Translations under genes and position numbers: made by a program
Part shown: positions 4,255-53,524 of the stretch, piece by piece
Position numbering within the stretch: the first letter of the stretch is position 1
Layout: each line of letters opens with the position of its first letter
The notes under the pieces: generated by a model
What the model was told of the DNA's origin: nothing
Database searches by the model: none
What the model saw: only the letters and a program-made list of their open reading frames with translations
DNA from: an uncultured Bacteroidia bacterium
Lineage (GTDB): Bacteria > Bacteroidota > Bacteroidia > Bacteroidales > Prolixibacteraceae
Length of the DNA: 64,000 nucleotides
Direction: 5' to 3'
NCBI GenBank assembly: GCA_903904515.1
Contig: CAIVCR010000110.1
Span: 31,915 to 95,914, forward strand

Positions 4255-4396
4255 GAATAAGAAGAAATAAATGGAAATTAGAAATAAATAGAAATTGGAA
4301 ATTCGTGGAAATAAAGGTGAAATAAGTGGAAATAGGTTGAAATAAAGTTGAAATAAAATATTTCTATTTATTTCAACCTTATTTCTATGTATTTCA
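4255..4396. repeat. GAAATAAA-type 10-11 bp period repeat ending in an inverted repeat
   Basis: GAAATAAATG GAAATTA GAAATAAATA ... GGTTGAAATAAAGTTGAAATAAAAT then ATTTCTATTTATTTCAACCTTATTTC. Confidence 0.8.
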
Positions 4397-4402
4397 TGGT
4401 TC

Positions 4403-5014
4403 CTACTTCACCAGAAAATCGAACATTTTCCGTTCGCCAATAAAACCTTCAAGCTGATCATTGATCTTAACAGGACCAACTCCGGCAGGGGTTCCGGTGT
4501 AGATAAGATCCCCGATTTTAAGGGTCACAAACTGCGAAATATGCTCAATAACGGTGTCGACGGAAAAGATCATATCTCTTGAATTTCCCCGCTGCATTAC
4601 CTCCCCGTTTTTCCGGAGTGAAAAATCGATCTGCCCAAGGTCCCCCAACTCTTCCTTAGGAATAAAACCACCCAAAACGGCAGACGAATCAAATGCTTTA
4701 GCTTTTTCCCATGGCAACCCCTTTTCGATCAGGTGACGTTGTACATCACGAGCCGTGAAATCGACACCAAGGCCAATTTCATCATAATAACGATGAGCAT
4801 AACGGGCTTCAATGGTTTTTCCCAGACGATTAATTTTTATAACCAGTTCGACCTCGTAATGAATCTCATTTGAAAAGCCGGGAAGGTAAAAATGACGGTT
4901 ATCCAACAATAAGGAGGAGTCTGGTTTCATGAAAAAAACCGGTTCCGTTGGAATATCATGTTCAAGCTCACGGGCATGCTTTAAATAATTGCGTCCAATA
5001 CAAATGATCTTCAT
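4403..5014 (-). CDS. Fumarylacetoacetate hydrolase family protein
   Basis: MKIICIGRNYLKHARELEHDIPTEPVFFMKPDSS...LIYTGTPAGVGP. Confidence 0.92.
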   Translation of the reverse strand: MKIICIGRNYLKHARELEHDIPTEPVFFMKPDSSLLLDNRHFYLPGFSNEIHYEVELVIKINRLGKTIEARYAHRYYDEIGLGVDFTARDVQRHLIEKGLPWEKAKAFDSSAVLGGFIPKEELGDLGQIDFSLRKNGEVMQRGNSRDMIFSVDTVIEHISQFVTLKIGDLIYTGTPAGVGPVKINDQLEGFIGERKMFDFLVK

Positions 5015-10944: not shown

Positions 10945-11135
10945 CTTTTTGACCCCTCTAAATCGCCCCAAAGGGGAGACTTTTGGCCAGCAATCCTTAC
11001 TCCCCTCCTTCTCCCCTCCTCTCCTTCTCCCCTCCCCTTCTTCTCCCCTCCTTCTCCCCTCCTCTGGAGGGGTTGGGGGAGGTCTGGGTTGGGGGAGGTC
11101 TGGGTTGGGGGAGGTCTGGGTTGGGGGAGGTCAAA
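10945..11135. repeat. Low-complexity purine/pyrimidine-biased intergenic repeat containing 3.75 copies of a 16-bp unit
   Basis: ccctctaaatcgccccaaaggggagac..., pyrimidine tract (ctcccctcctt)n, then TTGGGGGAGGTCTGGG x3.75 at 11073-11132. Confidence 0.85.
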
Positions 11136-11186
11136 AGAGGACAATATTAAGACAACATTATATTGTTCATATTACATATCAGCTGT

Positions 11187-17912: not shown

Positions 17913-17949
17913 CTATTTATGGCCTTATGACAATTTTGCACATTGAATA

Positions 17950-18057
17950 AATAAGTGCAAAATTAAAAGTGCAAAGTGCAAAATTAAAAATATGAAAAGG
18001 AGAACATTTTCTTCGTATTGACTATTTTGAATTTTGCATTTTTTATTTTGCAATTTG
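17950..18057. repeat. AT-rich direct/inverted intergenic repeat (GCAAAATTAAAA / TTTTTATTTTGC)
   Basis: aagtgcaaaattaaaagtgcaaagtgcaaaattaaaaat ... ttttgaattttgcattttttattttgcaatttg. Confidence 0.65.
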
Positions 18058-18130
18058 AACCGAATGATATTATTTCTAACCCTCTAAATTTGGGTCATTT
18101 ATAACTGATTAAATTTAAGCATCAAAAATT

Positions 18131-49719: not shown

Positions 49720-50331
49720 TTACAGATTTCCGTAATCCTGTACATTATAATTGACAAATGTGCTTGCAGTATTTCTGCTATAGCCAATTCCTACAGTGCT
49801 ATAATTAGAACTTAGCATGGTCATTCTATGTCCTAAATCGGCAACTCCGGCATCGATAATCATAATACGGATAAAATTGATTGCTGCATTTTTGGGATCA
49901 GCAGACGAATTATAGTTTTCGCCGGAAGAGGCTGCGATATTTTCTCCGATTGAAGAACCCTCAAACCCAACTGTTATCGCACGTTTCATTGGTGTTCCGT
50001 TGAGATCATGACCCATGAGGTTTTTATCTGCAAGGAAAGAGGCATAATTAGAGGCTGAGATGTTGAGTGAATTATTGAAAGTGAGCGCTGATAACGGGGC
50101 TAAACCTTTAAGATATAAGTAACTGCCATTGTCATTTGTAGCATCTTTCAACCTCAATTCGGCATATGCTGCAGGATTTGTCCGGGCTAAATTAATTTCA
50201 TCCAGCATGCTTTGCTGAAAAGGGGTAATAACTTGTGGAATTTCAACTGTAGCATCTTTTACCAAACCGGGCTGACAACTTATCAGGGAAATAAAAAGCA
50301 TTCCTAGAATCGCACTGAAAATCGTTTTCAT
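49720..50331 (-). CDS. CAP (SCP/PR1) domain lipoprotein
   Basis: Lipoprotein signal MKTIFSAILGMLFISLISCQPG; MLDEINLARTNPAAYAELRL...GENIAASSGENYN...GHRMTMLSSNYSTVGIGYS. Confidence 0.9.
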   Translation of the reverse strand: MKTIFSAILGMLFISLISCQPGLVKDATVEIPQVITPFQQSMLDEINLARTNPAAYAELRLKDATNDNGSYLYLKGLAPLSALTFNNSLNISASNYASFLADKNLMGHDLNGTPMKRAITVGFEGSSIGENIAASSGENYNSSADPKNAAINFIRIMIIDAGVADLGHRMTMLSSNYSTVGIGYSRNTASTFVNYNVQDYGNL

Positions 50332-50481
50332 ACAATCAATAATTGGTCAAACAAAAAATGATCTTTTGTATAATCTTTGGGCGATTCAAAAATACAGTAA
50401 TATATTTACAGTTCCAAGTAAAATGTATATTATTTATTTACTGTGTATGTTTTTTTTGTTTTGGCTGCTTAATCGCGAAGT

Positions 50482-50630
50482 AATAAAATAATTTAGTTAA
50501 TTATTTTATTGATTTTCTGATACTTAGATTTATCAGAAAAATGTAAAATTATTTTACTATGATTAATTAATCATAGTAAATTCCCGGGTGCGGGAATTGC
50601 ATTTAGAAAAAAAAGAAAATAATTTTACAT
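50482..50630. repeat. Cluster of perfect inverted repeats/hairpins
   Basis: AATAAAATAATT-tagtt-AATTATTTTATT; TTTTCTGATA-cttagatt-TATCAGAAAA; TTTACTATGATTAATTAATCATAGTAAA (28-bp palindrome); AATTCCCG-ggtg-CGGGAATT; outer 15-bp IR ATGTAAAATTATTTT (50541-50555) / AAAATAATTTTACAT (50616-50630). Confidence 0.92.
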
Positions 50631-50842: not shown

Positions 50843-50998
50843 TTAATTAAATGTGCCACTTACTAAATCGTCAAATGCATTATAAACTCCACGGTTTTGG
50901 GTTCGTTCCTGAAGGTCTTTCTGATTTTGTCTCCAGCTAAAGGCCATTTTCTTTAACTCAGCGTCGGCATGTTCAAAAAATAGCTGATAAGAATATAT
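50843..50998 (-). pseudogene. Possible decayed coding remnant (C-terminal fragment)
   Basis: Minus-strand open frame IYSYQLFFEHADAELKKMAFSWRQNQKDLQERTQNRGVYNAFDDLVSGTFN*; protein-like composition, no suitable start. Confidence 0.35.
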
Positions 50999-51076
50999 TT
51001 ACAGCTATGATCTGCGAAAATAATAAATTTAGATACTTTTACTTCCAATTGAATACACAAGAAAGCATGAATATTG

Positions 51077-53524
51077 ATGCCTAGATTTATAGTTTCCGTT
51101 CTGTGGTTGATTTGGTCTGCAACGATCACTGTCTGGGGGCAGAATTCATCTGCCGGGATAAAGGGGAAAGTTGTTGATCAGGAGTTGCATCCGCTTGAAA
51201 TGATCAGTATCCTGATTAAAGGGACCACCATTGGCACCACAACAAACAGCGATGGGGAATTCAGCTTACCGCCATTAAGGGGGAAGTCGTTAGTCCTTGT
51301 TTTTTCGGCTGTCGGTTATCAAAAAACTGAGCTGATGATTGCGCTCCCGGTCAATAAACCTATTTTGCAAATACTTAAATCTGAACTAAAAAGTATTCAG
51401 GAGATAGTTATTGAAAAAAAGAGGGAAAGGAATAACCTGATCGGAATCCAGCCCAAATTAACCTCCAGGTTACCATCAATAAGTGGTGGCGTTGAGACGT
51501 TGATCAAAACATTGCCAGGGGTAAGCAGCAACAATGAACTAAGTTCCCAATACTCGGTCAGGGGTGGAAATTTTGATGAAAACCTTGTCTACGTAAACGG
51601 GATTGAGATCATTCGCCCTTTCCTGGTGAAGTCAGGCGAGCAGGAGGGGCTTAGTTTCATTAACGGAGACATGGTTTCGTCTATCGGCTTCTCAACAGGT
51701 GGATTTGACGCCTCCTTCGGCGATAAAATGTCATCTGTGCTTGAAATCACTTATCGCAAGCCCAGTCGTACCGGTGCAATAGCTGAAATAGGTGCCTTGG
51801 GTGGATCGGCACTATTGGAGGGGATCAGTGCAAATGGAAAATTTTCCCACCTGACTGGAATCAGGTATAAAAATACCGCCTATTTACTGGGAACCCTGGA
51901 TAAAAAAGGGGAATACAACCCCTCCTTTACCGATCTGCAAACCTATCTCAATTATCGGTTTACCCCCCGTTTTTCATTGGGATTTCTAGGGAATTATGCT
52001 TCAAACAGCTACCAGTTTATCCCCAAAACCCAGCTTACCAGATTTGGCACCCTTACCAATCCATATCAGTTCACGGTCTATTTCGATGGGAGGGAGAAAG
52101 ATCTTTTCGAGAATTACCTTGGCGCCCTTTCGGCAGATTATACCCCGAATGAAAACATCTCCCTGAAATTGCAGGCCAGTTCATTTTACTCCTATGAAAA
52201 GGAGGCCAATGATATCCTGGGCGAATACTATTTAAGTGACATCTCTCAACAAAATGGTTCCCAGACCAATCAGGATAGCACGCTTGTCAATGGAACAGGA
52301 TCAGATCTGGGGCATGTCCGAAATAGCCTGACCGCCAAAGTTACAGCGTTAGAGCACAGGGGAGCATATTCCAAAGGCCATCATCAGATTCAATGGGGGA
52401 TTAAATACCGGCATGAGCATGTCTCCGATCGCATCAATGAGTGGGAGATGCGCGATTCAGCCGGGTATTCGCTACCCTATCGTGCCAATGATTTATCACT
52501 CTATCGTACCGTCACCGGCAAGGCGGATATAGTATCAAACCGCTATTCAGGTTTTGTTCAGGAGGGTTGGTCTGCTGAATTGGCCAGCGGAATTCTCGGT
52601 ATCACGGGTGGGGTGAGATTTCAAAACTGGGATTACAATCACCAGACCACAATTAGTCCAAGAATTTCAGTGAGCTGGAAAACAGGAAAAGAGAGAAGTC
52701 AAACTTTCAGGGCAGCCTGGGGAATATATGACCAAATGCCATTCTTCAAGGAATTAATCGATCGGAAGGCTCAACTGACAAAGGGTGTTAAAGCACAAAA
52801 AGCGATTCATTACGTAGTGGGTTACGACAAAATCTTCACCGGATACGAGCGTCCAATCAGACTTACAACCGAGGTATGGTATAAGTCACTTAGCCATTTA
52901 ATCCCCTATCAGATAGACAATTTAAATATTCAATACCTTCCTGATCAAACTGCCAATGGATACGCTTCAGGAATCGATTTTAAAATTAACGGAGAACTTC
53001 CCTCTGGTGCCCAATCGTGGGCAAGCCTCTCCTTAATGAAAACGGAAGAAAATATCCTGGGCGATTTTTATTTGAAGGAGGTTCCGGGAACAGGAACCGT
53101 AAAAATCTATCCCGGTTATATCCCCCGTCCCGCCGATCAGCGCATTAATTTCAGCATGTTTATTCAGGATTATTTTCCCGGATATCCATCTGTAAAAATG
53201 AGCATGACCCTGTTCTACGGAAGCCGCTTACCCTTTGGACCTCCAAGAGGTGCACGGTATTTGGACACCTTCAGAATGCCACCTTATCAAAGAGTGGATG
53301 CCGGATTCTCAAAGACGTTGATAGACAACAGCAAAAAAACCGTTCCAAACAACCGTAAATACCCTGTTGAAGAGGCATGGATCGGACTTGAAATATTCAA
53401 TCTCTTCGATATCAACAATACCATTTCTTACTATTGGATATCAGATATTCATAATCAAATGCACGCAGTTCCCAACTATCTGACCGGCCGCAGGCTTAAC
53501 CTGAAATTTTCAGTCAGGTTCTGA
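51077..53524 (+). CDS. TonB-dependent receptor with N-terminal CarboxypepD_reg-like domain
   Basis: GIKGKVVDQELHPLEMISILIKGTTIGTTTNSDGEFSLPPLRG; plug SQYSVRGGNFDENLVYVNGIEI; C-terminal LNLKFSVRF. Confidence 0.95.
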   Translation: MPRFIVSVLWLIWSATITVWGQNSSAGIKGKVVDQELHPLEMISILIKGTTIGTTTNSDGEFSLPPLRGKSLVLVFSAVGYQKTELMIALPVNKPILQILKSELKSIQEIVIEKKRERNNLIGIQPKLTSRLPSISGGVETLIKTLPGVSSNNELSSQYSVRGGNFDENLVYVNGIEIIRPFLVKSGEQEGLSFINGDMVSSIGFSTGGFDASFGDKMSSVLEITYRKPSRTGAIAEIGALGGSALLEGISANGKFSHLTGIRYKNTAYLLGTLDKKGEYNPSFTDLQTYLNYRFTPRFSLGFLGNYASNSYQFIPKTQLTRFGTLTNPYQFTVYFDGREKDLFENYLGALSADYTPNENISLKLQASSFYSYEKEANDILGEYYLSDISQQNGSQTNQDSTLVNGTGSDLGHVRNSLTAKVTALEHRGAYSKGHHQIQWGIKYRHEHVSDRINEWEMRDSAGYSLPYRANDLSLYRTVTGKADIVSNRYSGFVQEGWSAELASGILGITGGVRFQNWDYNHQTTISPRISVSWKTGKERSQTFRAAWGIYDQMPFFKELIDRKAQLTKGVKAQKAIHYVVGYDKIFTGYERPIRLTTEVWYKSLSHLIPYQIDNLNIQYLPDQTANGYASGIDFKINGELPSGAQSWASLSLMKTEENILGDFYLKEVPGTGTVKIYPGYIPRPADQRINFSMFIQDYFPGYPSVKMSMTLFYGSRLPFGPPRGARYLDTFRMPPYQRVDAGFSKTLIDNSKKTVPNNRKYPVEEAWIGLEIFNLFDINNTISYYWISDIHNQMHAVPNYLTGRRLNLKFSVRF

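Follow-up and report, generated by a model that had tools for sequence, protein, structure and literature searches.

The hairpin cluster at 50482-50630 is located in the upstream control region of a gene for a CAP-superfamily lipoprotein, where it overlaps an array of short words resembling protein-binding sites, and the additional hairpins are found in this genome alone. Our preferred explanation, to which we give a probability of about 0.68, is that the control region carries a putative array of operators belonging to a surface-protein regulon specific to the genus, and that the hairpins arose as a by-product of it. Promoter boxes, enrichment of the site word, its fixed spacing across species and its recurrence at genes for DUF4402 and SprB-repeat proteins can all be read directly from the DNA, while the mode of regulation and the origin of the hairpins are proposals built on them. 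The window, i.e., the whole 64-kb stretch of DNA that was analysed, has the CAP gene transcribed leftwards and a TonB-dependent receptor gene (51074-53524) transcribed rightwards, a layout that agrees with the earlier note, which had placed the cluster between these two genes. The interval between them also contains the degraded 3' end, at about 50843-50990 (minus strand), of a gene resembling those for anaerobic sulfatase maturases (so named from its radical-SAM-like protein sequence, without a family search); this gene is full-length 5' of CAP in L007 and, judging by sequence, also in L022 and L024. Orthologues of the CAP gene were found in 14 genomes of the same genus; the relatives are metagenome-assembled genomes of Prolixibacteraceae and other Bacteroidia from lakes, groundwater and similar habitats. 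The features of the region are as follows, distances being counted from the -7 box.

49720-50331, minus strand: CAP-superfamily lipoprotein gene (Pfam CAP PF00188, 33.9 bits against a cut-off of 21.1)
50387-50394, minus strand: predicted -7 promoter box TATTTTTG (TAnnTTTG), 63 nt 5' of the CAP start codon
50405-50409, minus strand: half-site GTAAA in the -33/-7 spacer, at 15
50415-50417, minus strand: predicted -33 TTG, with a spacer of 20 to the -7 box
50418-50422, minus strand: half-site TTTAC, at 28
50425-50441, no strand: 17-bp proximal palindrome GTATATTATTTATTTAC, operator-like (consensus GTAAAN7TTTAC), at 35/47, immediately 5' of -33
50482-50493/50499-50510, no strand: 12-bp stem with a 5-nt loop, arms like degenerate half-sites (AATTATTTTATT)
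50513-50522/50531-50540, no strand: 10-bp stem with an 8-nt loop, lacking the half-site, in this genome only
50541-50555/50616-50630, no strand: perfect 15-bp inverted repeat, arms 60 nt apart, the half-site word standing once in each arm, in opposite orientations
50543-50557, no strand: middle operator-like palindrome GTAAAATTATTTTAC, at 153/163
50553-50580, no strand: perfect 28-bp palindrome with a half-site word at each end
50579-50586/50591-50598, no strand: 8-bp stem containing G+C, with a 4-nt loop, without counterpart in relatives
50624-50628, minus strand: far half-site, at 234, inside the right arm of the 15-bp repeat

A direct coordinate check found all five inverted repeats of the earlier note to be exact, and its view that so much complementarity is unlikely by chance is borne out by shuffled controls. 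The 171 nt from 50470 to 50640 fold with -47.7 kcal/mol on the plus strand (z -7.4) and with z -8.3 on the minus strand, none of 200 dinucleotide shuffles being as stable in either case, and the strongest 150-nt piece of the cluster reaches z -10.8. The perfect arms of the cluster add up to a length of 79, compared with a mean of 13.7 and a maximum of 60 in shuffles (0/500), and of the eight perfect short-loop hairpins in the 64 kb whose arms reach 9 bp or more, three lie here. In the minimum-energy fold, a closed three-way arrangement is accompanied by two hairpins. This fold contains both the 15-bp repeat and the 28-bp palindrome, which had been described as mutually exclusive: the two do overlap, but only by 3 nt, and their exclusivity is weak. 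When the entire window is scanned for folding energy at given G+C content, the cluster comes out as the second strongest outlier. The strongest fold of the window, at 10950-11140 (150-nt energy -80.6 kcal/mol, 61% G+C), is made of C/T-rich short repeats opposite G-rich tandem repeats of GGGTTGGGGGAGGTCT, and two further long intergenic hairpins, A+T-rich and made up of short recurring words, are found at 4290-4410 (GAAATAAA) and 17930-18080 (GTGCAAAATTAAAA).

The word array is anchored on a promoter which, judged by its boxes (-33 TTG, -7 TAnnTTTG), is an ordinary one of the Bacteroidota housekeeping type. Such promoters are described for F. psychrophilum, with a -33 TTG/TTTG and a -7 TAnnTTTG (PMC9723704). 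The homologous intergenic region was collected from 13 genomes of the genus, ten of which have an alignable CAP promoter. TAnnTTTG is present in 11/11 compared genomes, 61-66 nt before the CAP start (47 nt in G008), and in 10/11 a TTG stands near -33, at the spacing of this promoter type (about 19-21 nt). Around these boxes the words GTAAA and TTTAC hold recurrent positions. The spacer half-site lies at 14 or 15 in 7/11 genomes, and the TTTAC half-site at 28 is shared with G010, while in most other genomes it lies at 33-35 and forms, together with the half-site at 45-47, a 17-bp GTAAAN7TTTAC (consensus GTAAATTATTTATTTAC) directly upstream of -33; the proximal palindrome is found at 45-47 in 9/11. 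The middle site is kept in G004 (152/162), G009 (162), G008 (161) and G016 (159), as supported by alignment, and the far half-site in G009 (233), G014 (233), G010 (234) and G004 (233), so that five genomes have it in common within 3 nt, a number that none of 400 shuffles reaches (maximum 4). The middle palindrome covers the greater part of the left arm of the 15-bp repeat, whose two arms are the two far sites of the array, a reading absent from the earlier note. Palindrome spacers vary, being 5, 7 and sometimes 4, 8 or 12. Over the 350 bp upstream of CAP in the 11 genomes there are 67 GTAAA/TTTAC words against 18.4 (sd 4.0) in shuffles, a 3.6-fold enrichment, although these shuffles overstate independence, sister sequences being related by descent. 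Within the window, the CAP intergenic region has the lowest P for these words among 21 intergenic regions (10 versus 3.2). The motif statistics are based on the window, on individually retrieved loci and on counts of pattern matches.

The same promoter type recurs at other genes of the genus. A composite pattern, GTAAAN7TTTAC-TTG-TAnnTTTR, has 22 matches in 18 same-genus genomes against 5 in the reversed control, and no excess in 87 other genomes of the family outside the genus (20 versus 23 in the control). Representatives of the genes behind it were scanned against Pfam and the remainder assigned by evident similarity, giving 6 CAP genes, 9 genes for small secreted DUF4402 proteins, 3 for SprB-repeat adhesins plus one on a truncated contig, and 3 others. 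Among the 15 non-CAP promoters, a set that is only partly independent since it includes paralogous DUF4402 genes, far sites recur at the places expected from the CAP promoters, 105-121 upstream of the palindrome in 8/15 (shuffle mean 1.0, 0/400 reach this) and 183-200 upstream of it in 4/15 (mean 1.1, P 0.0075). In the genome of the window itself, the DUF4402 gene L159 has sites at 235, 166/157, 35 and 6, and the SprB gene L037 has both palindrome and promoter. Enrichment of the site word, conservation of its positions among orthologues and an arrangement shared by CAP, DUF4402 and SprB genes are what would be expected of a regulon. The bare palindrome GTAAAN3-12TTTAC was also tried as a genome-wide marker and set aside in favour of the composite pattern, having 99 matches in the own genome versus 150 in the control; as it lacks whole-genome enrichment, the regulon would be small or the full context needed. 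Three further observations concern these words. In L037, L053 and L063, from three same-genus genomes, an SprB-repeat adhesin gene with this promoter signature follows an arginine-decarboxylase-like gene; the beta-helix secreted-protein gene L098 (own genome, C9, about 28.6-28.75 kb), possibly a further member of the set, has two upstream GTAAA..TTTAC palindromes with spacers of 12 and 5; and one near-consensus palindrome adjoins a topoisomerase I gene in two same-genus genomes (L042, L044). A search of the open-access literature found no description of the array motif.

The multi-stem fold by itself would suggest a structured non-coding RNA or a riboswitch-like leader, and the z values of -7.4 to -10.8 and the three-way arrangement with two hairpins speak for such a role, which the earlier note had proposed. 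We nevertheless consider it improbable: at the corresponding place in ten sister genomes z is never below -3.4 and mostly near 0, RNAalifold finds 0 conserved pairs in nine homologous regions, and Rfam gives chance-level matches only, at gathering and relaxed thresholds alike. The fold is as strong on one strand as on the other, and the cluster is situated on the upstream side of the CAP promoter, with no standard-spaced TTG and TAnnTTTG reading into it and only a weak TAnnTTTA at 50620-50627. A switch between alternative folds, also raised before, is likewise unsupported, in view of the same unstructured homologues and absent pairs and of the position of the cluster outside the CAP leader. 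That the hairpins are transcription terminators, e.g., a remnant of the upstream maturase 3' end, is very improbable. This degraded end does read toward the cluster, and the hairpins are accompanied by A/T runs, but they consist mostly of A+T, a G+C stem with a T-run is missing on both strands, the G+C hairpin at 50579-50598 is not followed by T, and relatives do not conserve the hairpins, the 12-bp stem at 50482-50510 likewise being without counterpart there.

The perfect 15-bp ends, 60 bp apart and enclosing an interior rich in hairpins, could also delimit an invertible segment or a short mobile element of the non-autonomous kind, and a mobile-element end and a recombination site had both been put forward for the cluster. 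The cluster, however, is present in a single copy in its own genome, and no copies were found in sister genomes, phages, plasmids or viral contigs; weak A+T-rich matches lack adjoining homology, and a 46-nt match in G015:C773, inspected by eye, contains neither array nor hairpins. The farthest site stands 233-234 bp from the -7 box both at this locus and in four sister genomes, which means that no DNA was inserted, and both ends are conserved half-sites in sister genomes, where they do not form a perfect repeat. A search of the contig for tyrosine recombinases (PF00589) was empty, the three of the assembly being all on other contigs, no target duplication was seen, and no promoter with a -33 TTG lies between the 15-bp arms (50556-50615). 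Mobility or inversion is very improbable. Selection of the palindromes in this lineage, whether as additional operators or as an element able to form a cruciform, is also unlikely, if less readily dismissed. The cluster is far beyond chance, and the 28-bp palindrome adds a right-hand half-site word (50576-50580, at 186) that is missing in relatives; against this, two of the hairpins have no half-site word, and the other promoters of the set lack such structure, their arrays giving z of -2.0 to +1.1 compared with -9.6 at the CAP cluster.

Under the preferred explanation, an operator array with hairpins as its by-product, one DNA-binding regulator would recognize the half-site WWTWTTTAC, paired as GTAAAN5-7TTTAC, at putative sites in the -33/-7 interval, immediately 5' of -33, and about 160 bp and about 234 bp from the -7 box. 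A dimeric regulator may occupy the proximal palindrome and the half-sites overlapping the promoter, with the two far sites helping through cooperative binding or looping. Measured centre to centre, the middle site is about 117 bp and the far site about 188 bp away from the proximal palindrome, or near 11.1 and 17.9 turns; such nearly whole numbers of helical turns fit looping, or cooperative binding on one face. Since the sites overlap the promoter core, repression appears more likely than activation; we infer that a repressor accounts best for sites that lie within the -33/-7 spacer or abut -33, and a class-II-like activator less well. The hairpins would have grown on the A+T-rich quasi-palindromic array by template switching during replication, a plausible origin in this genome. 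Template-switch mutation has been reported to perfect hairpin arms, and quasi-palindromic operator arrays are natural substrates for it (PMC7202029; PMC8794818). For the 10-bp and 8-bp hairpins the array offers no explanation. A bolder combination, in which a hitherto undescribed, genus-specific putative regulator controls CAP, DUF4402 and SprB proteins through looping between sites at fixed distances out to 234 bp and the palindromes have in addition changed regulation in this lineage, can be put forward tentatively and is rather doubtful. Little is known about the regulation of adhesins in Bacteroidota beyond Flavobacterium and gut Bacteroides, and a signature joining a CAP lipoprotein, DUF4402 proteins and SprB-repeat adhesins defines a regulon open to testing and offers a bait with which to seek the regulator. 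The region also illustrates how a promoter rich in A+T can mislead by its strong predicted structure: the information conserved in it is where the DNA words stand, not the stems.

Control regions of the AraC, GalR and LacI types have multiple operators, including distant auxiliary ones. The CAP region resembles them in combining a promoter-proximal operator-like site with distant sites at fixed, near-integral helical spacing, and differs from them in that its site word has not been linked to a known family and that looping is here a suggestion from the spacing. Compared with the F. psychrophilum promoter, the CAP -7 box and the spacing of the TTG match, whereas the flanking GTAAA/TTTAC array has no equivalent in what is accessible of that description (PMC9723704). 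The perfect stems, their restriction to one lineage and their quasi-palindromic location are features shared with template-switch hairpins, the CAP case being known from its perfected form alone (PMC8794818; PMC7202029). Finally, the invertible promoters of Bacteroidales likewise have an inverted repeat in the control region of surface proteins (PMC8748976), but the arms at CAP are conserved half-sites, the segment between them carries no promoter and no tyrosine recombinase gene is nearby.
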